Assembly: GCA_005801425.1 (NCBI GenBank)
Contig: SYDY01000015.1
Coordinates: 1 to 27,701, forward strand
Length of the DNA stretch: 27,701 bases
Source: Bdellovibrionales bacterium
Lineage (GTDB): Bacteria > Myxococcota > XYA12-FULL-58-9 > SYDY01
Reading direction: 5' to 3'
In this document: one piece after another, positions 1,408 to 12,407 of the stretch
Position numbering within the stretch: position 1 is the stretch's first letter
How the letters are laid out: every line of letters begins with the position of its first letter
The notes under the pieces: generated by a model
The model's database searches: none
Seen by the model: the letters and a program-made list of their open reading frames with translations, nothing else
What the model was told of the DNA's origin: nothing
Made by a program: the position numbers and the translations under genes

Positions 1408-1436
1408 TCGACACACTGAAGGAAATAACCTACTAT
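1408..1436 (+). promoter_or_regulatory. Predicted sigma-70-type promoter of the blaI-like gene and metal operon
   Basis: A -35-like TCGACA at 1408-1413 is separated by 17 bp from a -10-like TACTAT at 1431-1436. The -10 lies inside the left arm of the palindromic operator, which is the usual geometry for repression by BlaI/MecI-type repressors. Transcription would begin near 1443, leaving a leader of about 30 nt. Inferred by eye only. Confidence 0.55.
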
Positions 1437-1450
1437 CGAAAATAGTAGGT
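1428..1450 (+). promoter_or_regulatory. BlaI-type operator O1
   Basis: This is a perfect inverted repeat with 9-bp arms ACCTACTAT and ATAGTAGGT around a 5-bp spacer. The core resembles the TACTACA/TGTAGTA half-sites bound by MecI/BlaI dimers. It lies immediately upstream of a BlaI-family gene and overlaps its predicted -10 box. The same core recurs at 2942-2962. Assignment to the neighbouring repressor is inference from family knowledge and position. Confidence 0.75.
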
Positions 1451-1471
1451 CACTCCAAGGATCCAATCAGC

Positions 1472-1885
1472 ATGTTTCACCTCCGCACAGGGAAGATAGG
1501 TTTGGCACTTCGTCTTCACGCACTTGAAGCGACCATTATGGACGTGGTGTGGAGCAAACGGCTTTTCGCTTTCTCAGTGAGCGATGTGCTTGTCGTTCTC
1601 GAAAAACAACGTGACATTGCCTACACAACCGTCATGACCACGATGTCGCGGCTTCACGACAAGGGATTGCTGACACGCAAGCGTGATGGAAAGCGATACC
1701 TTTATTCTCCCAAGCTTACACGAGAACAGTTCCTCGAATCCACAGCACGCACGGTGCTCGATGGGGCAATAGGAAGCCACCAAGCAATTGCCATGCTCGC
1801 TGAAAAAGTTTCCGAAGCATCCGCAGATGAACTTGACGATCTGGAAGCATTGATTTGCCAACGTCGCGAGGAGCTTGGCATATGA
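1472..1885 (+). CDS. BlaI/MecI/CopY-family transcriptional repressor
   Basis: This 137-residue cytoplasmic repressor is expected to bind the palindrome just upstream as a dimer and to be released by proteolysis through the membrane protein encoded next. Residues about 15-80 form the family's winged helix, with the recognition segment around YTTVMTTMSRLHDKGLLTRK and the wing around DGKRYLYSP. The rest, with a helical segment around residues 90-137, fits the dimerisation region. The start at 1472 has AAGGA at 1457-1461. Its TGA overlaps the ATG of the blaR-like gene (ATGA), implying translational coupling. Family members control beta-lactamase, mecA or copper transport genes. Here the downstream genes are metal-efflux genes and no beta-lactamase is present, so the likely regulon is metal resistance. 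I leave the symbol empty because a blaI label would suggest beta-lactam control. Confidence 0.9.
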   Translation: MFHLRTGKIGLALRLHALEATIMDVVWSKRLFAFSVSDVLVVLEKQRDIAYTTVMTTMSRLHDKGLLTRKRDGKRYLYSPKLTREQFLESTARTVLDGAIGSHQAIAMLAEKVSEASADELDDLEALICQRREELGI

Positions 1886-2901
1886 CAGAAGCCATTTTTC
1901 CATTGCTTGGTACAGCTTTCGTCATTCTGATCGCTCTCCCCTGCTCTGCGCTGATCGCTAAAGCCGGGCTGATGATTGTCGAACACGAAAAAGTCTCTGG
2001 ACGCCTTCACAGCCTAGACCTTCGCTATATACTCCTCATTGCTACGAGCATTGTGCCCATCGCCTGGTTTCTTTCGGCGGGCCTTCATCAAATTGAATCC
2101 GGAAAATTAACGTTGGCATGTCTCTTCGATCACAATGCTGCCCTATGCTTTGAACCTGGATTTTTTGCACTTACCCTCATCTTCGTTGTGATACATCTTG
2201 GTACTGCAACACTTCGACACAATCGAAGACCACGCATCTCCACGAGCACCCATGCTGATGCACTCACGCAACGTGTCGAACGTCTCATCCTTGCAAACGC
2301 TTCTCTTCAACCGCTTCATGGTCGGATCCGCATCACAGATGAACATGATTTCGCGCTGGGAACACATGGTCTTCTCAAGCCGGTTGTTATTATTGGGTCA
2401 TCATTCGCGGATCGTATTTCACATGACATGCTCGCAAGTGCACTTGCTCATGAGAACGAGCACGTACGCTCCCTTGATCCGTTACGTTACTTGCTTCTCA
2501 AGCTCGCACTCGCAGTGAACCCACTCGGACGTTTTCTTCTTGGATCCCATGTTTCGCGGTGGCATGCCGCGCAGGAAGCGCATTGCGATCGCGAAGCGGT
2601 GATCCGAGGCGCATCGCCACTGTCCCTCGCCGATGCCATCATTCGCGCTGCACGACCAAGCACCCAAGAGGCGGTGGCCCTCGGTGCCAGAGACACCACA
2701 GTGCTCAAATTCAGGATCCAAATGCTACTTGCGTTTTCTGAACAAAATCCAACCAGGTGCTGTCGACGCGAAATACCCGCTATCCCCATGATCTTGATCC
2801 TTCTGATCTTCACACTCATTCTTCCACACCAAACAAGCACGGCTGCGCTCGACGCCATCCATACCGGCTCAGAACATATACTCACTTACTTCTTGCACTG
2901 A
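1882..2901 (+). CDS. BlaR1-like membrane M56 metalloprotease without a penicillin-sensor domain
   Basis: This 339-residue inner-membrane protein should act as signal transducer, with its cytoplasmic zinc protease inactivating the repressor encoded upstream. Visible features are TM segments near residues 5-30, 47-68, 93-111 and 299-315, the zinc motif HENEH at 190-194, and a downstream QEAHCDRE block at 231-238 that fits the family's third zinc ligand. The start is the ATG at 1882, which overlaps the blaI-like stop, not the upstream in-frame start at 1855. Classical BlaR1/MecR1 is about 580-600 residues with a C-terminal beta-lactam-binding domain; this protein ends 24 residues after TM4. By BlaR1 topology the loop at 69-92, with H69, C80, D83, H84, C89 and E91, and the His-containing tail (H316, H327, H332, H339) would face the periplasm. 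That makes them candidate metal-sensing elements, which is inference. Confidence 0.85.
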   Translation: MTEAIFPLLGTAFVILIALPCSALIAKAGLMIVEHEKVSGRLHSLDLRYILLIATSIVPIAWFLSAGLHQIESGKLTLACLFDHNAALCFEPGFFALTLIFVVIHLGTATLRHNRRPRISTSTHADALTQRVERLILANASLQPLHGRIRITDEHDFALGTHGLLKPVVIIGSSFADRISHDMLASALAHENEHVRSLDPLRYLLLKLALAVNPLGRFLLGSHVSRWHAAQEAHCDREAVIRGASPLSLADAIIRAARPSTQEAVALGARDTTVLKFRIQMLLAFSEQNPTRCCRREIPAIPMILILLIFTLILPHQTSTAALDAIHTGSEHILTYFLH

Positions 2902-2905
2902 GGAA

Positions 2906-4351
2906 ATGATGAACCCATTTTATACCATTCATGTGCCCTTATCTACTATCGCTCATAGTAGAATTGCGTTTGTACTTTTATTATCGGTTCTCACCAGCAC
3001 GAATACGCACGCTGCCTCCGACACAAAAAAAATAACAACCATTGTAGAAACGCCACCACCGCATCTTCGCGCAGTTGCTGAAGAAGACAGCACAGATGAT
3101 GATCATGAGCAAACACGCACCATCCCGGATCCAAGTGCGAAGGCCGATGTTCCTCTCGGTGGGATACTCCTGTACGCAGATCTGCATTCGCCTGTGCTCT
3201 TGGTTGCGCGAAGCACACGTTCTCGCGCGGAAGCAGCACGGGCCGCCGCTTCGCCGCTTTTGCCTGGAAACCCCACGCTCACTGTCGCCGCAGGCCCACG
3301 CTATGGCATTACGGGAACTGGAACCGATGTTGACGTTTCTTTAATGCAGCAAATTCAAATTGCAGGTGAACGCGGCCAGCGTATCAAAGCTTCTGACCAG
3401 CTTCGCGATCTTACCAATGCTGAGATCGAACAAATGCGTTGGTTGGTCCACTGTGATGTTCATGCTGCATTTCATCGCGCGCTCATTGAGCAAGCGCGCG
3501 CGCAGCTTGCGGAACGCGTTGTGGTTTTTCAAGCGGAGATCCTGCGTGTTGTAGAACGTCAGATCTCTTCAGGTGACGTCGCTCCCCTTGCTCTGCGCTT
3601 GACTCGCGCTGAAGTTGCGCAATCGCAACAAATTCTTGTGGCTGCACAGCAAACGTTCTTCGCTTCGCGTATTCGTCTCGCACAACTTTCAGGTTGGCCT
3701 ATTGCCACGCCGCCTATGCCTGCTGGAAGCGTGGACACGCCCCGTGAACCACCCCATCAAAATGTCCTTCTCACCATTGCACGCGAACATTTGCCTAATT
3801 TGCGTTCGGGTGAAGCGCGCATTCGTGAAGCAGAATCGCGCGTCGCTGTTGCCAATCGCGATATCTGGCCACGGCCATCTATCGGCGTGCAATACCGACG
3901 CGAAGGCAATCCAACCAGCGAAGGCCCCTACAGCATGGTGATGGGCGTTCTGTCCCTTCCCATTCCTACTTTTCAGGTCAATCAAGGCGAGCGTGCGCGC
4001 GCACGTGCCGATGCTACGGTGGCCACGGCCGAACTCGATGCGATCACGCGATTGTTAGAAGGTCAAATTGTCGAGGCGCATAGCGAAGTCACCGCAGCGG
4101 CGCAACGCACACGTGTTTATAGCACAGAGATCCTTCCACGTTTTGAAGAAAACCTCACACTCCTTCGTCGATCTTTCGAGCTGGGCGAGATCGACATTCT
4201 CGCGCTTTCCACGGGGCGTGAACGTTTCCTACGCATTCAGAACGACGCGCTAGGTGCTCAACTGGACTATTTTGTCGCACTGGCCGGACTCGAACGGGTC
4301 GTTGGGATCGACCTTTGGCGAGACGATAACCATGAGGAAAAAACACCATGA
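2906..4351 (+). CDS. czcC: CzcC/TolC-like outer-membrane factor of a metal-efflux RND pump
   Basis: This 481-residue outer-membrane channel protein should form the exit duct for the CzcBA-like pump. An N-terminal signal peptide is visible (hydrophobic run around RIAFVLLLSVLTS, probable cleavage after THAA). It is followed by an Asp/Glu/His-rich stretch at about residues 55-80, then two outer-membrane-efflux repeats with long helices rich in Ala, Glu, Gln and Arg. Two adjacent ATGs (2906, 2909) follow GAGGAAA at 2900-2906, five bases after the blaR-like stop. An in-frame GTG at 2933 lacks a ribosome binding site. The gene ends in ATGA, overlapping the adaptor gene. Oddly, a second copy of the BlaI-type palindrome is embedded in codons 13-19. 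The family call is firm. The metal range is inferred from the downstream transporter genes. Confidence 0.85.
   Translation: MMNPFYTIHVPLSTIAHSRIAFVLLLSVLTSTNTHAASDTKKITTIVETPPPHLRAVAEEDSTDDDHEQTRTIPDPSAKADVPLGGILLYADLHSPVLLVARSTRSRAEAARAAASPLLPGNPTLTVAAGPRYGITGTGTDVDVSLMQQIQIAGERGQRIKASDQLRDLTNAEIEQMRWLVHCDVHAAFHRALIEQARAQLAERVVVFQAEILRVVERQISSGDVAPLALRLTRAEVAQSQQILVAAQQTFFASRIRLAQLSGWPIATPPMPAGSVDTPREPPHQNVLLTIAREHLPNLRSGEARIREAESRVAVANRDIWPRPSIGVQYRREGNPTSEGPYSMVMGVLSLPIPTFQVNQGERARARADATVATAELDAITRLLEGQIVEAHSEVTAAAQRTRVYSTEILPRFEENLTLLRRSFELGEIDILALSTGRERFLRIQNDALGAQLDYFVALAGLERVVGIDLWRDDNHEEKTP
2942..2962 (+). promoter_or_regulatory. BlaI-type operator O2 inside the czcC-like coding region
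   Basis: A perfect 8-bp inverted repeat, TCTACTAT and ATAGTAGA, surrounds a 5-bp spacer, sharing the core CTACTAT-N5-ATAGTAG with the operator at 1428-1450. It lies 36 bp inside the czcC-like reading frame. TACTAT could again serve as a -10, but I see no matching -35. Binding could act as a roadblock or loop with O1, about 1.5 kb away. Function is inferred. Confidence 0.65.
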
Positions 4352-5484
4352 ATTCAAACTTTGTCATTGCGTTGATCCTCATCACCTTTTTTAGCGCCTG
4401 TCGCAAAGACGCTGAAAAAAAGGAGGATCATGATAAGAAAAATGAACACCTGAACGAGATCCATCTCACAAAAGAGGCACTCGAATATGCTGGTATTCGC
4501 ATTGCAACCGTTGAACGACGCGCATTGACTGGCGGTGTCGCAATTCCTGCGGAAGTTCAATTTGAGCCAAGCAGCACGGCCCATGTCGGGCCGCTTGTCC
4601 AAGGTCGCATCACACGTGTTGCTGTTACGCTCGGTGAACGCGTACACAAAGGACAGTTGCTGGGCATCGTCGCTTCGAGCGATGTCTCCGCTGCCCGCGC
4701 ACGACTTGATCAAGCGCAAGCACGCCTTTCTGCGGCGACAGCGACCATGCAACGTCAACAACTCCTTTCCACCGAAGGAATTGGCGCGCGACGATCTCTG
4801 ATCGATGCAGAGGCTCAGCTTGGCGATATTCGGGCGGAAATCAAAGGCCTCAAACGGCAGCTCTCTGTATTTGGATCCGGCAGCGGCGGTGAACTGGTGC
4901 TTACGTCGCCCATCAATGGCGTGATTGTCGCTGTGCATGCCACTCTTGGCGAAATTGCAAGCCCCGATCAACCAGCGTTCATCGTGACCGATCCAACGAA
5001 AGTTTGGATACAAGGCCATGTTCCAGAACTTGAGTTGAGTCGTGTCATTACGGGCTCTGCAGCTATCGTACGCCTTCATGCATTTCCCGATCTCGCCATG
5101 CCCGGAACGATCACCTACGTCGCCCCTTCCTTGGACGAAAAAACGCGGTCCATTCCTGTGCGCGTCATGCTTAAAACGCCAGATCCCCGTTTGCGAAGCG
5201 GTCTCTTCGGCAGCATTGAACTTGTCGGTGGAAATGCAGGCGAACGTGTCTTGGTGGTTCCTGCCGATGCAATCGCAACGCTTGATGGACAAACGGTGGT
5301 GTTTGTTCCTGCGGATGAACAGAACAGTTTTAAGCCACAGCCGGTCGCACTGGGACGACGGGCCGGAGGGCTCTTTGAAGTTCGATCTGGGATCCAAGAA
5401 GGTGCGCAGATCGCTGTCAGCGGCGCATTTACACTAAAGAGCGCGTTGCGCAGCGATGAACTTTCCGAACATCACGATCACTGA
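4348..5484 (+). CDS. czcB: CzcB/CusB-like membrane-fusion lipoprotein of the RND metal pump
   Basis: This 378-residue periplasmic adaptor links the inner-membrane pump to the outer-membrane channel. It begins with a lipoprotein signal ending in FFSAC, with C18 as probable lipidation site. A His/Lys/Glu/Asp-rich segment follows (DHDKKNEH). HlyD-type features come in order: a lipoyl half around GPLVQGRITRVAVTLGERV, a helical hairpin at roughly residues 110-175, the second lipoyl half (LTSPINGVIVAVHATLGEI), beta-barrel segments and a C-terminal domain. It ends in SEHHDH, a His/Asp cluster that could bind metal. The ATG overlaps the preceding stop (ATGA), and the pump gene starts 10 bp after the stop, so the three products are probably made in step. 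Family assignment is strong; exact metal specificity is not readable. Confidence 0.88.
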   Translation: MNSNFVIALILITFFSACRKDAEKKEDHDKKNEHLNEIHLTKEALEYAGIRIATVERRALTGGVAIPAEVQFEPSSTAHVGPLVQGRITRVAVTLGERVHKGQLLGIVASSDVSAARARLDQAQARLSAATATMQRQQLLSTEGIGARRSLIDAEAQLGDIRAEIKGLKRQLSVFGSGSGGELVLTSPINGVIVAVHATLGEIASPDQPAFIVTDPTKVWIQGHVPELELSRVITGSAAIVRLHAFPDLAMPGTITYVAPSLDEKTRSIPVRVMLKTPDPRLRSGLFGSIELVGGNAGERVLVVPADAIATLDGQTVVFVPADEQNSFKPQPVALGRRAGGLFEVRSGIQEGAQIAVSGAFTLKSALRSDELSEHHDH

Positions 5485-5494
5485 GGAACCTGCC

Positions 5495-8400
5495 ATGAAA
5501 AAATTTCTAGAACTCTGCCTCACATGGCGCTTACTCGTGTATGCCTTCGTTGTCATCGTCGCAGCAGTAGGGATCCGCAATGCTCAGCAGCTCCCAATCG
5601 ATGCTGTCCCCGATATCACTACCGTCCAGGTTCAAGTGCTTACAAACGCACCAGCGCTTGGTCCGGTTGATGTTGAGCGCATGATCACCTTTCCCATCGA
5701 ATCATCCATGAGCGGCCTACCGGGTATTGAAACGATCCGCAGCGTGTCGCGTTTCGGACTCTCTGCTGTCACCGTGGTTTTTGAGGAAGGCACCGATCTT
5801 CTGCGTGCACGCCAACTCATCTCAGAACGCTTAATAGAGGCCCGTGATCGTCTGCCCAAAGATGCGTCCCCTGAACTTGGACCGCTCAGCTCCGGGCTTG
5901 GGGAGATCTTTCAATTTGAATTGCGTGCGGAGGTTATGTGCGCTGCTGGGAAACCGGATACCGAGCAATGTTACTCTCCCATGGAACTGCGCTCATTGCT
6001 TGATTGGTTCGTCGCATATGAATTGCGATCCGTGCCGGGTGTCGTCGAGGTCAACTCTTTTGGTGGCGAATTAAAAACATACGAAGTCGAAGTTATCCCT
6101 GATCGATTGCGTGCTCTGGATGTTTCACTCAACACACTTTTTTCGGCTCTTGAGCAAAACAACGCAACTGCGGGCGGTGGCTATCTTGTGCGATCGGGTG
6201 AGCAACTCCTCGTTCGCGGCGAAGGTCGTATCCAGAGCCTCGACGAGATCGGCGATGTACTGATCGAAACACGTAACGATGGAATGCCCGTACGTGTACG
6301 CGATGTTGCGCGTGTTCATCTCGCACCCATGATCCGTCAAGGGGCTGTCACGCGGGATGCGCGTGGTGAGATCGTCACAGGCATCGTGATGATGCTTGTG
6401 GGTGCCAACGGTCGTGAAGTGGTGGAAAATGTAAAAGAAAAAATTGCGCAAATCACACCATCACTCCCACCAGGCGTAAGCATCGATGTATTCTATGATC
6501 GCGCCGATCTTGTAAATCGAACCATCCATACTGTGGGAAAAAATCTGGCAGAAGGGGCCCTCTTCGTTATCGCCGTGCTGTTTCTTCTTCTCGGCAGTGT
6601 TCGGGGTGGCCTTATCGTGGCTGCCGCTATTCCATTTGCAATGCTTGTTGCCTTCACAGCCATGAGAATGCTTGGCCTGAGTGGAAATTTGATGAGTCTT
6701 GGTGCCATTGATTTTGGCATTGTCGTTGATGGCTCCATCATCGTTGTTGAAAATGCCATTGTTCATCTCGCAGCCGCTGCACGCGGGAAAAAACGAGCGA
6801 TGACGTACGCAGAGGCCGCAGATGTTGTTCTCAATGCAACCCTCGATGTACGCAAAGCCGCACTTTTTGGTGAAGCAATTATCGTCATTGTTTACCTCCC
6901 CATCCTCACACTCGTCGGCATTGAAGGAAAAATGTTCAAACCGATGGCAATCACAGTGCTCTTCGCGTTGCTGGGCGCATTTATCGCATCGCTTACTTTC
7001 GTTCCCGTGCTGGTTGCCACATTTTTGAGGCAGCACCCCGAAGAAAAAGAGCCGTTCATCGTTCGCCATCTTCATCGTGTGTATCCACCCTTGCTCGCCA
7101 AGCTCATGCAAGTGCCAACGAAGGTCATCAAAATCTCACTCGCGTTATTGTTCATCGCAGGACTCGTCGCATGGCGCATGGGAGCCGAATTTGTGCCGCG
7201 CCTCGATGAAGGTGCCCTTGCGATTCAGATCCTTCGGTTACCCAGCGTATCACTCGAAGAGAGCGTACAAGGTGCAACACGATTTGAGCGCGTTATGCGT
7301 GAGTTTCCAGAGGTGGTCACCGTCGTATCCAAAACGGGACGCGGGGAGATCGCCACAGATCCCATGGGTGTGGAGCTTTCCGATGCCATTGTCACTTTGA
7401 AACCCCACGGCGAATGGACGACCGCTGATACCCGAGAGGAACTGATTGAGCGCATGTCTGCGCGGCTTACCGAGGTCCTCCCCGGACTTGGTTTTTCTTT
7501 CTCTCAACCTATCGAATTGCGCATGGCTGAACTTATCAGCGGTGCCCGTTCGGATGTTGTCATCACAATTTATGGGGACGACTTGGCTATTCTTGAGCGC
7601 TTGAGTCTCCAGGTACAAAATGTTGTGCGCGGTATTCCTGGCGCTTCTGATGTTCGCGGTGAGCAGCTCGCGGGCCTTCCAACGCTTGAGGTCACAGTCG
7701 ATCGCGCTGCCGCCTCACGCTATGGCATTTCAGTGCGCGACGCACTCGATGTCATCGAAACTTTAGGAGGCCGTGCCGTCGGTGAAATTTACGAAGGTGA
7801 ACGTCGATTTCGATTGCAAGTGCGCGTTCCATCCGCACTGCGCGACGATATCGATCAAGTGCGAAATTTACCCGTGAGCGGTCAAATGGGTCCGCTTGTT
7901 CCATTGGGCCAAATAGCCAACATTCAAATCGTTGATTCGCCCGCAAGTATAAGCCGTGAGGCCATCCGTCGCCGCACCAACGTCGAAGCCAACGTACGCG
8001 GACGTGATCTTGCATCCTTCGTTGGTGAGGCACAAACACGTGTTCTCAAAGAAGTGCCGATGCCACCCGGTTATGTTCTGCAATGGGGTGGTCAATTCAA
8101 GAATCTGACCGCTGCTTCCGAGCGTCTGGCGCTTGCCGTACCCATGGCCCTCGGACTGATTTTTATCCTGCTTTACATGGCTTTTGGCCAAATCAAACCG
8201 GCGCTTCTCATCTATTTGAACGTGCCCTTCGCGGCGGTGGGTGGAGTATTCCTCTTGGCCCTTCGAGGCATGCCATTTTCGATCAGCGCAGCCATCGGTT
8301 TTATTGCACTCTTCGGCATCGCGGTGCTGAACGGTGTTGTTTTGCTAACGACAATTAAAAAGCTTCGTGCCTTAGGTAAAACACCGTATGAAGCAGCCCG

Positions 8401-8638
8401 TGAAGGCGCTGAGTCTCGCTTGCGTGCGGTCGTCATGACAGCAACGGTCGCAGCGCTTGGATTTATTCCGATGGCACTTTCGTCAAGTGCAGGCGCTGAA
8501 GTTCAAAAGCCACTGGCCACAGTGGTGATTGGCGGCCTCTTGAGTGCAACATTCCTGACCTTGTTTGTACTGCCAACCGTCTACGCTTACGTCTATCGAC
8601 AGGAAGAACCCCATGAACTCAAATCACCCCATTGCTGA
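5495..8638 (+). CDS. czcA: CzcA-type heavy-metal RND efflux pump (HME-RND)
   Basis: This 1047-residue inner-membrane proton/metal antiporter is the engine of the tripartite efflux complex. The N-terminal TM segment (LLVYAFVVIVAAVGI) is followed by the family pattern LPIDAVPDITTVQVQV. The TM4 signature DFGIVVDGSIIVVEN carries D406, D412 and E419, equivalent to the proton-relay residues of CzcA. The DFG...DG...EN form points to the Zn/Co/Cd/Ni branch, not the Cu/Ag branch, although substrate prediction from this motif is approximate. Two large periplasmic loops and twelve TM segments in two halves are evident. The start is the ATG at 5495, preceded by GAGGAA at 5483-5488; an upstream in-frame ATG at 5456 lies inside the adaptor gene. 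The periplasmic part includes a two-Cys segment (CAAGKPDTEQC). The gene overlaps the following ATPase start by 26 bp. Confidence 0.95.
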   Translation: MKKFLELCLTWRLLVYAFVVIVAAVGIRNAQQLPIDAVPDITTVQVQVLTNAPALGPVDVERMITFPIESSMSGLPGIETIRSVSRFGLSAVTVVFEEGTDLLRARQLISERLIEARDRLPKDASPELGPLSSGLGEIFQFELRAEVMCAAGKPDTEQCYSPMELRSLLDWFVAYELRSVPGVVEVNSFGGELKTYEVEVIPDRLRALDVSLNTLFSALEQNNATAGGGYLVRSGEQLLVRGEGRIQSLDEIGDVLIETRNDGMPVRVRDVARVHLAPMIRQGAVTRDARGEIVTGIVMMLVGANGREVVENVKEKIAQITPSLPPGVSIDVFYDRADLVNRTIHTVGKNLAEGALFVIAVLFLLLGSVRGGLIVAAAIPFAMLVAFTAMRMLGLSGNLMSLGAIDFGIVVDGSIIVVENAIVHLAAAARGKKRAMTYAEAADVVLNATLDVRKAALFGEAIIVIVYLPILTLVGIEGKMFKPMAITVLFALLGAFIASLTFVPVLVATFLRQHPEEKEPFIVRHLHRVYPPLLAKLMQVPTKVIKISLALLFIAGLVAWRMGAEFVPRLDEGALAIQILRLPSVSLEESVQGATRFERVMREFPEVVTVVSKTGRGEIATDPMGVELSDAIVTLKPHGEWTTADTREELIERMSARLTEVLPGLGFSFSQPIELRMAELISGARSDVVITIYGDDLAILERLSLQVQNVVRGIPGASDVRGEQLAGLPTLEVTVDRAAASRYGISVRDALDVIETLGGRAVGEIYEGERRFRLQVRVPSALRDDIDQVRNLPVSGQMGPLVPLGQIANIQIVDSPASISREAIRRRTNVEANVRGRDLASFVGEAQTRVLKEVPMPPGYVLQWGGQFKNLTAASERLALAVPMALGLIFILLYMAFGQIKPALLIYLNVPFAAVGGVFLLALRGMPFSISAAIGFIALFGIAVLNGVVLLTTIKKLRALGKTPYEAAREGAESRLRAVVMTATVAALGFIPMALSSSAGAEVQKPLATVVIGGLLSATFLTLFVLPTVYAYVYRQEEPHELKSPHC

Positions 8639-10589
8639 TGCCAAACAACAGCACGACGACCCTACAAGTCAGTCGAGCATCAAACTCGCCGCAGCGCTTG
8701 TCTTGGCGATTGCAGCGGAACTTGTTGACGCTTTCGCCCCACACACACTTCCATGGCGAAGCATTGGGCTTATCATGGCCGTGGTCGCAATTGGGATCGC
8801 GGGAATTGATGTTTACAAAAAAGGCCTGCGCGCATTGCGAAAAGGCCATCTCAACATCAACGCACTCATGAGCACAGCCGTCACCGGAGCCATGGTGATT
8901 GGGCAATGGCCAGAAGCGGCGATGGTGATGGCGCTTTATGCGATCGCGGAGGCTATAGAAGATCGCGCCGTGGATCGTGCACGAAACGCAATCAAGGGCC
9001 TGCTTGCTCTGGCCCCAGAGAAAGCCAATATCAAACAAGCCGACGGTACGTGGCGTTTAATGTCCGTGAAAGAAGTTTCCTTGGGAAGCACGGCTTGGGT
9101 TCGCCCAGGGGAACGCATACCCATGGATGGTATTATCACCACGGGCAACACCAGCATCAATCAGGCGCCTGTTACAGGAGAGAGCATACCCGTTGACAAG
9201 GGCCCAAATGATCCCGTGTTTGCGGGAACCATCAACGACATGTGTGCATTTGAACTGAGAGTTACCGCAGTGGCTGCAAACTCAACCCTCGCTCGAATCA
9301 TTCATGCCGTGGAAGAAGCACAAAGCACCCGTGCACCAACGCAAAGTTTCGTAGACAAATTCGCTGCCATTTACACACCATCGATTTTTTTCATTGCGGT
9401 TGCGATAGCCGTATTTGGACCGCTATTGCTGGATTGGCCGTGGTTGACTCGCATCTACAAAGCCCTGGTACTTTTGGTGATTGCATGCCCATGTGCCTTG
9501 GTGATCTCAACACCGGTTTCGATTGTCAGTGGCCTCGCGGCTGCGGCAAAAAACGGGATCTTGATCAAAGGTGGAATACACCTGGAAAACGCCAGAAAGC
9601 TAAAGGCCATTGCATTCGACAAAACAGGGACGATCACCGAAGGCAAACCCAAACTTGTTTACAAAGAGTTCATGCACGACGAATGGCATCAGAGTGAAAA
9701 CATTGCCGCTGCCATTGCCAGCCAATCAGACCATCCTATTTCGCAAGCCATTTCAAAAAATCTTCAATCATCAACGTTGGTCGTCAGCGCTTTTCAAGCG
9801 TTGCCTGGAAGGGGCATTCAGGCAACGGTAGAAAACATAGAATACGTGTTGGGCAATCATCGACTCATCGAAGAGCGCAAGCTGTGTTCACCAGCACTAG
9901 AGAAAATTTTGCTTCGTCACGAAGCCCAAGGACATACGGTTACATTGCTTGCAACACGCGGATCGGTACTGGCTATCTTTGCGGTCGCCGACACAATCAA
10001 GGCGTCCTCAAAAAGGGCAATTGCCGAATTAAAAGCGCTGGGCATCCTTCCCATCATGCTCACCGGTGACAATCAAACAACAGCCGCTGCCATTGCCAAA
10101 GAAGCCGGCATCGAAGAAGCGCGTGGAGAACAACTTCCGGCGGATAAACTCTCGGCTATCAAAGAGATGCATCAAAAGTTTGGATCCAGCGCGATGACGG
10201 GGGATGGCATCAACGACGCACCAGCTTTAGCAGAAGCAGATATAGGCATTGCCATGGGTGGTGCTGGCACAGACATTGCCATGGAAACTGCCGACATCAT
10301 CATCATGAACGATGACTTACGTAAGATCGTACAGGTCATCCGTCTCTCCAAGAGAACCTGTGCAATCCTTTGGCAAAACATCACATTTGCCCTTGGCATT
10401 AAGGCAGCGTTCCTTGTGCTCGCCGTATTCGGTACCGCGGCCATGTGGATGGCTGTGTGTGCGGACATGGGCGCGAGCCTCTTGGTCGTTCTTAATGGCC
10501 TGCGATTATTGAAACAGTTGAGCAAATGGTCCGCCGTGCAGTTGCGGGCTGGCGAACAGACAAAGCCCAAGGAATTTATGCCACTGTAG
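8613..10589 (+). CDS. cadA: P1B-type Zn/Cd/Pb-exporting ATPase without an N-terminal metal-binding domain
   Basis: This 658-residue inner-membrane ATPase should move divalent soft metals from cytoplasm to periplasm, where the RND complex can expel them. Catalytic landmarks are C292-P293-C294 in the metal-binding TM helix, the phosphorylation site D336 in DKTGT, a SDHP motif with H374, TGDNQ, and D531/D535 in GDGINDAP. In the last TM pair ADMGASLLVVLN (D618) matches the Zn/Cd/Pb subgroup (ZntA/CadA-like), not copper ATPases. The ATG at 8613 has AGGAAG at 8601-8606, and an upstream in-frame start at 8565 would add only residues read from inside czcA. The N-terminus has no CxxC heavy-metal domain, only a short His-containing stretch, so the protein is shorter than typical CadA. 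The 26-bp overlap with the pump gene makes a shared transcript likely. Confidence 0.93.
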   Translation: MNSNHPIADAKQQHDDPTSQSSIKLAAALVLAIAAELVDAFAPHTLPWRSIGLIMAVVAIGIAGIDVYKKGLRALRKGHLNINALMSTAVTGAMVIGQWPEAAMVMALYAIAEAIEDRAVDRARNAIKGLLALAPEKANIKQADGTWRLMSVKEVSLGSTAWVRPGERIPMDGIITTGNTSINQAPVTGESIPVDKGPNDPVFAGTINDMCAFELRVTAVAANSTLARIIHAVEEAQSTRAPTQSFVDKFAAIYTPSIFFIAVAIAVFGPLLLDWPWLTRIYKALVLLVIACPCALVISTPVSIVSGLAAAAKNGILIKGGIHLENARKLKAIAFDKTGTITEGKPKLVYKEFMHDEWHQSENIAAAIASQSDHPISQAISKNLQSSTLVVSAFQALPGRGIQATVENIEYVLGNHRLIEERKLCSPALEKILLRHEAQGHTVTLLATRGSVLAIFAVADTIKASSKRAIAELKALGILPIMLTGDNQTTAAAIAKEAGIEEARGEQLPADKLSAIKEMHQKFGSSAMTGDGINDAPALAEADIGIAMGGAGTDIAMETADIIIMNDDLRKIVQVIRLSKRTCAILWQNITFALGIKAAFLVLAVFGTAAMWMAVCADMGASLLVVLNGLRLLKQLSKWSAVQLRAGEQTKPKEFMPL

Positions 10590-11321: not shown

Positions 11322-11331
11322 TAGAGCTCTA
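11322..11331. promoter_or_regulatory. 10-bp palindrome upstream of the replication gene
   Basis: TAGAGCTCTA is a perfect palindrome about 40 bp before the initiator start, and could be an operator. CATGC and GCATG at 11293-11317 form a second loose inverted repeat upstream. No good -10/-35 pair was found here, so this is a weak call. Confidence 0.25.
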
Positions 11332-11369
11332 TGTTGTTTAACATTTTCAAGTTAATTGAGGGAGAGAAT

Positions 11370-12407
11370 ATGTGGATCCCACTTCACGATACACTCATTG
11401 GACACCGAAAACTTCGACGCCTCACACGCATCCTTAATATCAGCGAGCCCACCGCCCTAGGGCATATCACCCTCTTATGGCTCAACGTCATGCAGCGGGT
11501 GCCCGACGGTCTGCTCACAAACCACGACGCCGAAGACATCGCCGCCTATGCCAAATGGGACGGCGACGCACAAATCTTTGTTGCTGCGCTTATTGAAGTT
11601 CTATTTTTAGATCTGTCGGATGGGATCTATCACATTCACGATTGGGATGTTCACACCCTTCACGGCAAAGACAAAAACCGACGCGAACGCGACAAACATC
11701 GCAAACGTTCGCAACCTGAAAGTGTCCAAGCAACACAGCCCAATGCCCCTGCCAAAGAAAAATCAACCCGTGATCCGCAAGACGCCAACAGCATTCCGAC
11801 GGAATTCCAAGCACCTGCCATGGAATTCCAAGCACCTGCCTCGGAATTCCAAGCACCTGCCACGGAATTCCAAGCACCTGCCACGGAATTCCAAGCACCT
11901 GCCATAGAATTCCAAGCACCTGCCACGGAATTCCAAGCACCTGCCATGGAATTCCAGCCCTATAGTAGAGTAGAGAATAGTAGAATAGATAAGAGTAGAG
12001 TAGAAAAGAAAAAACACACGCGTGCATACGCACGCGAGGATGTGTTGTTGATCTTTTCCCATTATCGAAAATTTCATCAACATGCCCACCCTTCGCCGCA
12101 ACCGAACAGCATCGAGTGGAAAGCCATCGCAGCACGCATGGCCGAAGGCTACAGCGTCGACGATTTGTGCAAAGCCATCGACGGATGCCATCGCTCACCG
12201 TTTCACCTGGGCCAAAACGAAAGCGGCACCAAACACACGGGACTTCGCATCGTCGTGCGCGATGGTTCGCAGGTTGCAAACTTCATTTCCATGGCCAACA
12301 ACCCAACACCCTGCCCTACGCAGCCTGTAAGCCCCGCCACGCAACGCCTGATCTCCGTCGGCAACGCATGGTTGGCCAAAACTGAAAACGCCCTGGAGGT
12401 GCACTGA
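11370..12407 (+). CDS. Lambda O-like replication initiator with in-gene iteron repeats
   Basis: This 345-residue protein is predicted to bind the origin and nucleate the replisome. The start at 11370 is preceded by GAGGGAGAG at 11358-11366 and begins MWIPLHDTLIGHRKL, in the style of phage/plasmid replisome organisers with an N-terminal winged helix (about residues 1-95). A basic linker follows (KDKNRRERDKHRKR), then eight heptapeptide repeats EFQAPAx at residues 145-197, a charged hinge, and a C-terminal domain (about 220-325, EWKAIAARMAEGYSVDDL to VANFI) resembling the conserved C-terminus of phage replication proteins. The repeat-encoding DNA has the layout of the lambda origin inside O. 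The next gene overlaps by one base and resembles a helicase-loader-type partner. No polymerase or helicase gene is nearby, so host DnaB would be needed. The architecture supports the role; family naming is from memory. Confidence 0.7.
   Translation: MWIPLHDTLIGHRKLRRLTRILNISEPTALGHITLLWLNVMQRVPDGLLTNHDAEDIAAYAKWDGDAQIFVAALIEVLFLDLSDGIYHIHDWDVHTLHGKDKNRRERDKHRKRSQPESVQATQPNAPAKEKSTRDPQDANSIPTEFQAPAMEFQAPASEFQAPATEFQAPATEFQAPAIEFQAPATEFQAPAMEFQPYSRVENSRIDKSRVEKKKHTRAYAREDVLLIFSHYRKFHQHAHPSPQPNSIEWKAIAARMAEGYSVDDLCKAIDGCHRSPFHLGQNESGTKHTGLRIVVRDGSQVANFISMANNPTPCPTQPVSPATQRLISVGNAWLAKTENALEVH
11801..11956 (+). repeat. Eight 21-bp iteron-like direct repeats with GGAATTCC core
   Basis: The unit GGAATTCCAAGCACCTGCC plus two variable bases recurs every 21 bp. 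Cores begin at 11801, 11822, 11843, 11864, 11885, 11906 (AGAATTCC variant), 11927 and 11948, and the last unit is partial. Each core is an 8-bp palindrome, and 21 bp is two helical turns, so all sites face the same side of the helix. Changes between units fall mainly at the two bases before the core. Location inside the initiator gene suggests binding sites for its own product. Confidence 0.85.
11961..12016 (+). other. Purine/A-rich tract beside the iterons; candidate unwinding region
   Basis: Directly after the repeats the top strand is almost free of C and consists of AGTAGA/GAATAG-like units, ending in an A-rich run. Its low GC and strand asymmetry resemble the AT-rich segment next to the lambda O iterons, where the duplex opens. 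The tract still encodes protein (a Ser/Arg/Glu/Lys-rich hinge). The role is inferred from position. Confidence 0.5.

Follow-up and report, generated by a model that had tools for sequence, protein, structure and literature searches.

A BlaI-type repressor and an M56 protease at the head of a Czc and P-type ATPase metal-efflux operon with two conserved operators

The window, the whole stretch of 27,701 nucleotides analysed here and part of a 3.38 Mb assembly, carries a repressor–protease pair of the BlaI/BlaR1 type directly ahead of genes for metal pumps. This raises the question of whether a proteolytic switch familiar from penicillin resistance may control metal efflux, and of what it would sense.

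The operon and its setting

A BlaI repressor and an M56 protease had been proposed in an earlier note as the first two genes of a tightly packed metal-efflux operon, and the Pfam and NCBIfam matches and the tight succession of the genes bear this out. The operon lies on the plus strand in the order blaI, M56 protease, czcC, czcB, czcA and P1B-type ATPase, with its 3′ end at 10589. The gene blaI (1472–1885) encodes a BlaI/MecI-type winged-helix repressor of 137 aa that matches Pfam Penicillinase_R (PF03965; 1.5e-26, 93.4 bits against a cut-off of 22.6), and its profile matches the solved structures of BlaI and MecI. The M56 membrane metalloprotease gene (1882–2901, 339 aa) overlaps it, its start codon being shared with the blaI stop in an ATGA. 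It is followed by czcC for the outer-membrane factor (2909–4351; PF02321, 2e-34; ATG at 2909 in an ORF open from 2906), czcB for the periplasmic adaptor (4348–5484; TIGR00999 at 2.3e-54, below the cut-off of that model, and TIGR01730 above its own), czcA for the heavy-metal RND pump (5495–8638; TIGR00914, 1205 bits against a cut-off of 701) and the ATPase gene (8613–10589, ORF open from 8565; TIGR01525 and TIGR01512 above cut-off). The czcA ORF is open from 5456, and the start at 5495 was picked by comparing relatives. With czcB and czcC adjoining a pump of the CusA/CzcA family, the CzcCBA set is complete.

CzcA carries the motif DFGIVVDG, and its best match among solved structures is ZneA. 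CusA carries a methionine triad, the positions of which align with non-methionine residues in the window CzcA. In the ATPase, CPC and DMG motifs are present, which we take to denote the Zn/Cd/Pb class of P1B ATPases. As the earlier note had it, none of the proteins of the window that were scanned with Pfam is a β-lactamase or penicillin-binding protein, and the transpeptidase-domain proteins of the genome lie on other contigs.

Upstream of the operon, in the region 67–1379, ardA (734–1354) is flanked by a second copy of the gene, decayed and inverted, at about 67–568 (71% identity over 597 columns). The segment 13165–17035 encodes a Replication-relaxation family protein and a T4SS coupling-protein-like ATPase, which suggests that the operon resides on a mobilisable element; a terminal overlap was looked for in the contig and none was found. 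The segment 17746–26899 is defence-like, with a DUF2779 protein, an Mrr-type restriction enzyme, a DUF5677 protein and the R and S subunits of a type I restriction system. In several relatives the P-type ATPase gene is followed on its 3′ side by a class I methyltransferase gene (13934–14557 in L007); an ORF of that size occupies this position in L003, L005, L006, L007 and L008.

Two operators and their conservation

Two exact copies of the palindrome CTACTAT-N5-ATAGTAG are present, operator 1 (CTACTATCGAAAATAGTAG) at 1430–1448 and operator 2 (CTACTATCGCTCATAGTAG) at 2943–2961, about 1.5 kb apart. Shuffled sequences gave a mean of 0.17 matches and never reached two, and in the whole 3.38 Mb genome these two sites are the sole matches with up to two mismatches. 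The palindromes had been thought to mark the repressor promoter and the first efflux gene. For operator 1 this holds, as it overlaps a probable sigma-70-type promoter recognised by consensus scan (1408–1436, plus strand; TCGACA-17 bp-TACTAT), with the −10 element in its left arm. Operator 2 proved to be intragenic and devoid of a promoter signature; it does not lie in a promoter gap and covers about codons 12–18 of czcC, counted from the ATG at 2909, within the signal-peptide n-region. A role as a second promoter was rejected, given a −35 score equal to that of shuffles and a czcC start codon upstream of the site. Inside the downstream ORF 11331–12407, two ATAGTAG half-sites occur as a direct repeat at 11962 and 11977, 15 bp apart.

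The search for BlaI–M56 pairs before czc genes, combined with the palindrome scan that the earlier note had suggested, showed that the arrangement recurs in about 40 loci, mostly from Myxococcota and with M56 identity as low as 23%, in which the gene order is kept and an operator stands ahead of blaI, with a second at the czcC start. Many of these loci come from metagenome-assembled genomes, and taxa are named here as in the records. When bacterial genomes were scanned with the M56 protein, eight loci emerged, mostly in Myxococcota MAGs. All eight have the order BlaI-M56-CzcC, followed in seven by czcB and czcA (in the other, L002, the sequence ends soon after czcC), and in all eight the two palindromes occupy the corresponding positions (in L006 the second one was read from the sequence directly). 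Seven related genomes scanned whole, under a somewhat relaxed pattern that tolerated one mismatch, contain exactly two palindrome sites each, all in the BlaI-M56-Czc operon. An M56 profile search gave matches in 38 of 377 genomes from the phylum to which the genome of L003 belongs and in 4 of 195 from the window's own phylum; a plasmid search for M56 relatives returned none. The blaI gene stands beside the M56 gene in nearly all fetched loci, and at least one Czc gene lies downstream on the same strand in 33 of the 34 fetched Myxococcota neighbourhoods, the remaining one being cut by a contig end.

The operators were scored across 44 loci as 19-mers matching at least 10 of the 14 palindrome positions. 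An operator-1-like site is kept at the blaI promoter in 40 of the 42 scorable loci, where BlaI is predicted from the sequence to bind, and 37 of the 44 loci have an operator-2-like site no more than 130 bp from the M56 stop; the best score elsewhere is 8–10 in most loci. Operator 2 is absent or unrecognised in the other seven, one of which is cut by a contig end. In L058, where about 1 kb of extra sequence separates M56 from czcC, the palindromes adjoin czcC, directly before it. Operator 1 overlaps a promoter in one of two ways. The window shares its geometry with close relatives: in the window, L003 and L005, TCGACA or TTGACA is followed at 17 bp by a TACTAT in the left arm (L005 has a perfect TTGACA-N17-TACTAT). 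In L071, L075, L078 and L080 a TTGACA abuts the palindrome. Two further loci have paired operators of their own with a different sequence at both places, CTACGATGTTAC(A/T)TCGTAG in L122 (M56 at 7073–8125) and a form like CTACTAC-N5-(T/C)GTAGTA in L132 (M56 at 6725–8032), both from the second M56 group described below.

In most loci operator 2 lies 3′ of the start codon, in the czcC signal-peptide n-region, so that the site might be a by-product of protein conservation. This was ruled out: ACT and AGT are rarely used codons in the GC-rich relatives, as is CAT in most of them; L049 and L057 have the site upstream of the czcC frame, and L066 reads it in a different frame. It is therefore the DNA, and not the protein, that is kept. 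A shared RNA hairpin at the two operators was judged unlikely, because operator 1 of the window, which holds the probable −10 element, would not be fully transcribed. The simplest reading of operator 2 is a roadblock or one end of a DNA loop, for which the lac operator inside lacZ offers a comparison.

The M56 protease and its candidate metal site

The M56 protein matches PF05569 at 1.3e-5, below the curated cut-off, and the genome has no other Peptidase_M56 match. Its HExxH motif is HENEH at 190–194. In an alignment of 35 proteins that are 23–62% identical to the window M56, the catalytic residues H190, E191, H194 and E232 are invariant, and C235 and D236 are also kept. Outside the catalytic site, H327 is likewise invariant, W62, S65, H69, E72, C80, P315 and H316 are present in at least 90% of the proteins, and H84, C89 and E331 are the majority residues. 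Folds were compared because a profile search with the M56 sequence against solved structures gave no match. The AlphaFold model, built without metal from 35 diverse sequences (pLDDT 88.9, pTM 0.86), was used instead of one from 10 close sequences (pLDDT 52). Its best matches are S. aureus BlaR1 entries (Z 11.2–13.6 over 224–240 residues, rmsd 5.7–6.8 Å), followed by Ste24-type proteases; Foldseek also ranked BlaR1 first, but with E > 0.001.

The penicillin-binding sensor domain of BlaR1 is absent from this protein, which ends about 25 residues past the last predicted membrane helix and has PF05569 as its sole domain. That a β-lactam-responsive BlaI/BlaR1 system stands by chance beside an efflux operon, as the family names of the two regulators would have it, is thus already contradicted by the anatomy of a 339-aa M56; with operators restricted to the metal operon and a Czc linkage kept across tens of genomes, we regard this explanation as scarcely credible.

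The residues conserved outside the catalytic site suggest what may stand in place of the sensor. By analogy with BlaR1, residues 67–91 would form its outer loop EL1, and the C-terminal tail, from about residue 315 onwards, would lie outside as well. On the basis of conservation, H69, E72, C80, H84, C89, H316, H327 and E331 are candidate outer metal ligands. The pairs H69/E72, C80/H84 and H327/E331 have i to i+3 or i+4 spacing in predicted helices, which would correspond to a common spacing of metal ligands. In BlaR1, β-lactam binding displaces EL1, a loop that is coupled to helix 3 (PMC9834060); this makes direct action of a metal on EL1 a concrete hypothesis for the M56 protease.

The tail motif was compared with pump linkage in a control set of M56 proteins from 20 neighbourhoods, collected with the Pfam model and not with the profile. 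An H-x3-E tail is present in 9 of 9 Czc-linked controls and in 1 of 11 without Czc; the exception (L130) has the motif, but its contig ends soon after. Two more non-Czc controls match H-x3-E within long fused ORFs. The linkage has a Fisher p of 0.0001 by the strict count and 0.0014 by the loose one, for a motif derived from the profile set and a strict/loose split chosen after the data had been seen. Most of the nine Czc-linked controls form a second M56 group with a His/Cys-rich outer loop of approximately DHCxxH...HxHLCxxH. A third group belongs to the phylum of the genome of L008 (record titled Alphaproteobacteria), in which 27 of 395 genomes have M56 matches, all distant except that in L008's own genome. 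Pump genes adjoin BlaI-M56 in 13 of the 20 neighbourhoods fetched from this phylum, and the pump-linked proteins have mostly Cys/His-rich tails, such as DCTMDRCETHAELIDDCKTHC. Ten pumps of the phylum carry a CusA-like motif (e.g. AIAIGAMIDGA), and the window and most Myxococcota loci have the DFG...DG motif. A match between sensor ligands and pump class is no more than suggested by these data, as phylum and pump class are confounded.

These data bear on where a metal would be sensed. BlaI could be a direct sensor like CopY, with M56 as an accessory or merely turning BlaI over; CopY belongs to the same repressor family, and the CopY model TIGR02698 is the best NCBIfam match of BlaI, although the score of 62 bits falls short of the cut-off of 122. 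The Cys motif of CopY is missing, with no conserved Cys or His across 42 BlaI homologues (no Cys column reaching 40%), which makes CopY-like sensing unlikely. The constant presence of an M56 gene next to blaI, with the catalytic residues of the protease intact, also argues against it, and we consider direct sensing by BlaI improbable. Somewhat less improbable, though still unlikely, is that M56 cleaves BlaI on a signal other than metal bound to M56, such as damage to the envelope, a partner protein under metal stress, or the loading of its own catalytic site with metal. Signals have been established for only a minority of M56 proteins, and for PetP a copper dependence of the protease activity itself has been proposed (PMC7896320). 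Against this stand the conserved non-catalytic His, Glu and Cys residues on the predicted outer face of M56, and the tail and loop motifs that track metal-pump linkage. Periplasmic metal sensing by M56 is well supported by inference.

Proposed control and known systems

Control of the Czc and P-type ATPase operon by BlaI and M56, as the earlier note proposed, is strongly supported by conserved synteny, two genome-unique operators per genome and conserved residues, both catalytic and non-catalytic. Judged from sequence, the locus is probably a metal-efflux operon under autoregulation by a proteolytic BlaI/M56 switch, with a periplasmic metal of the Zn/Cd class activating M56. A BlaI dimer would sit on operator 1, overlapping the promoter, and on operator 2, just inside the first pump gene. 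The latter site would serve either to halt transcription as a roadblock or to anchor the distal end of a DNA loop; a block at this point would allow low-level production of the regulators while the pumps are off. The M56 protein would be a cut-down BlaR1 in which the penicillin sensor gives way to a metal site, made up of the C-terminal tail together with the outer loop that connects membrane helices 2 and 3. Binding of a periplasmic Zn/Cd-class metal at this outer site would activate the cytoplasmic protease site, M56 would cleave BlaI and free both operators, and the pumps and the ATPase would be made until the metal falls.

A broader proposal, with roughly even chances of being right, envisages a widespread family of single-operon metal switches whose M56 proteins have exchangeable outer metal sites suited to their pumps. 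In Myxococcota, where the pumps are of the Zn/Cd class, the site would be a His/Glu/Cys loop plus an H-x3-E tail; in the other phylum sampled, with its CusA-like pumps, it would be a tail rich in Cys and His. Metal would bind on the loop that serves as the BlaR1 relay, and the intragenic operator would separate the expression of regulators and pumps. If metal control by BlaI and M56 is borne out, the penicillin-resistance switch would be a general periplasm-to-DNA signalling chassis with an exchangeable sensor, and a class of heavy-metal pump control would be added beside the two-component, MerR, ArsR and CopY types. A question about BlaR1 also becomes testable, namely whether the outer loop alone, without a penicillin-binding domain, can drive the protease. 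Some of the genes that are annotated as BlaR1 or as penicillinase repressor in environmental genomes may be metal regulators, which would affect surveys of resistance genes. A review mentions a blaR1 gene close to Ni/Co resistance genes in a nickel-resistant Shewanella (PMC11253441); this may be another metal-linked M56 under a β-lactam name.

In the literature searched, which included only a minority of subscription papers, BlaI/M56 control of Czc operons is not described; the efflux-pump use, the sensor anatomy, the dual operator with an intragenic copy and the breadth of distribution thus appear to be new. The earlier note had seen a different control logic here, and this stands in part. 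Metal control relieved by a protease is known in principle from PetR/PetP of Synechocystis sp. PCC 6803, a BlaI/BlaR-type pair whose regulator is degraded when copper is present (PMC7896320); a second source also describes this copper-responsive control (PMC12292863). As in PetR/PetP, a BlaI-family regulator is encoded here beside a BlaR1-family (M56) protease. The targets of PetR/PetP are plastocyanin and cytochrome c6, whereas here they would be an efflux operon, and a commentary on that system mentions no dual operator around the regulator genes (PMC7896320).

With BlaI/BlaR1 and MecI/MecR1 of S. aureus, the locus shares the repressor family, the M56 HExxH...E signature and paired operators, as well as, by comparison of the predicted fold, the four-helix membrane scaffold of BlaR1/MecR1. 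It differs from them in the absence of a penicillin-binding sensor, in its metal-pump targets, in the operator sequence and in the predicted cleavage site, since the Asn-Phe pair cleaved in S. aureus BlaI is not kept; the second operator is, moreover, intragenic here. The likeness to CopY lies in the repressor family and the control of metal export, but CopY binds the metal itself through its Cys motif, whereas this BlaI lacks conserved Cys and has a protease gene always adjoining. The C-B-A order of the pump genes is that of CzcCBA and ZneCAB, and CzcA falls in the Zn/Cd/Co motif class, ZneA being its best match among solved structures. The heavy-metal RND determinants of Cupriavidus metallidurans are mostly run by two-component systems (PMC10127602), in contrast to the proteolysed repressor that is predicted here.
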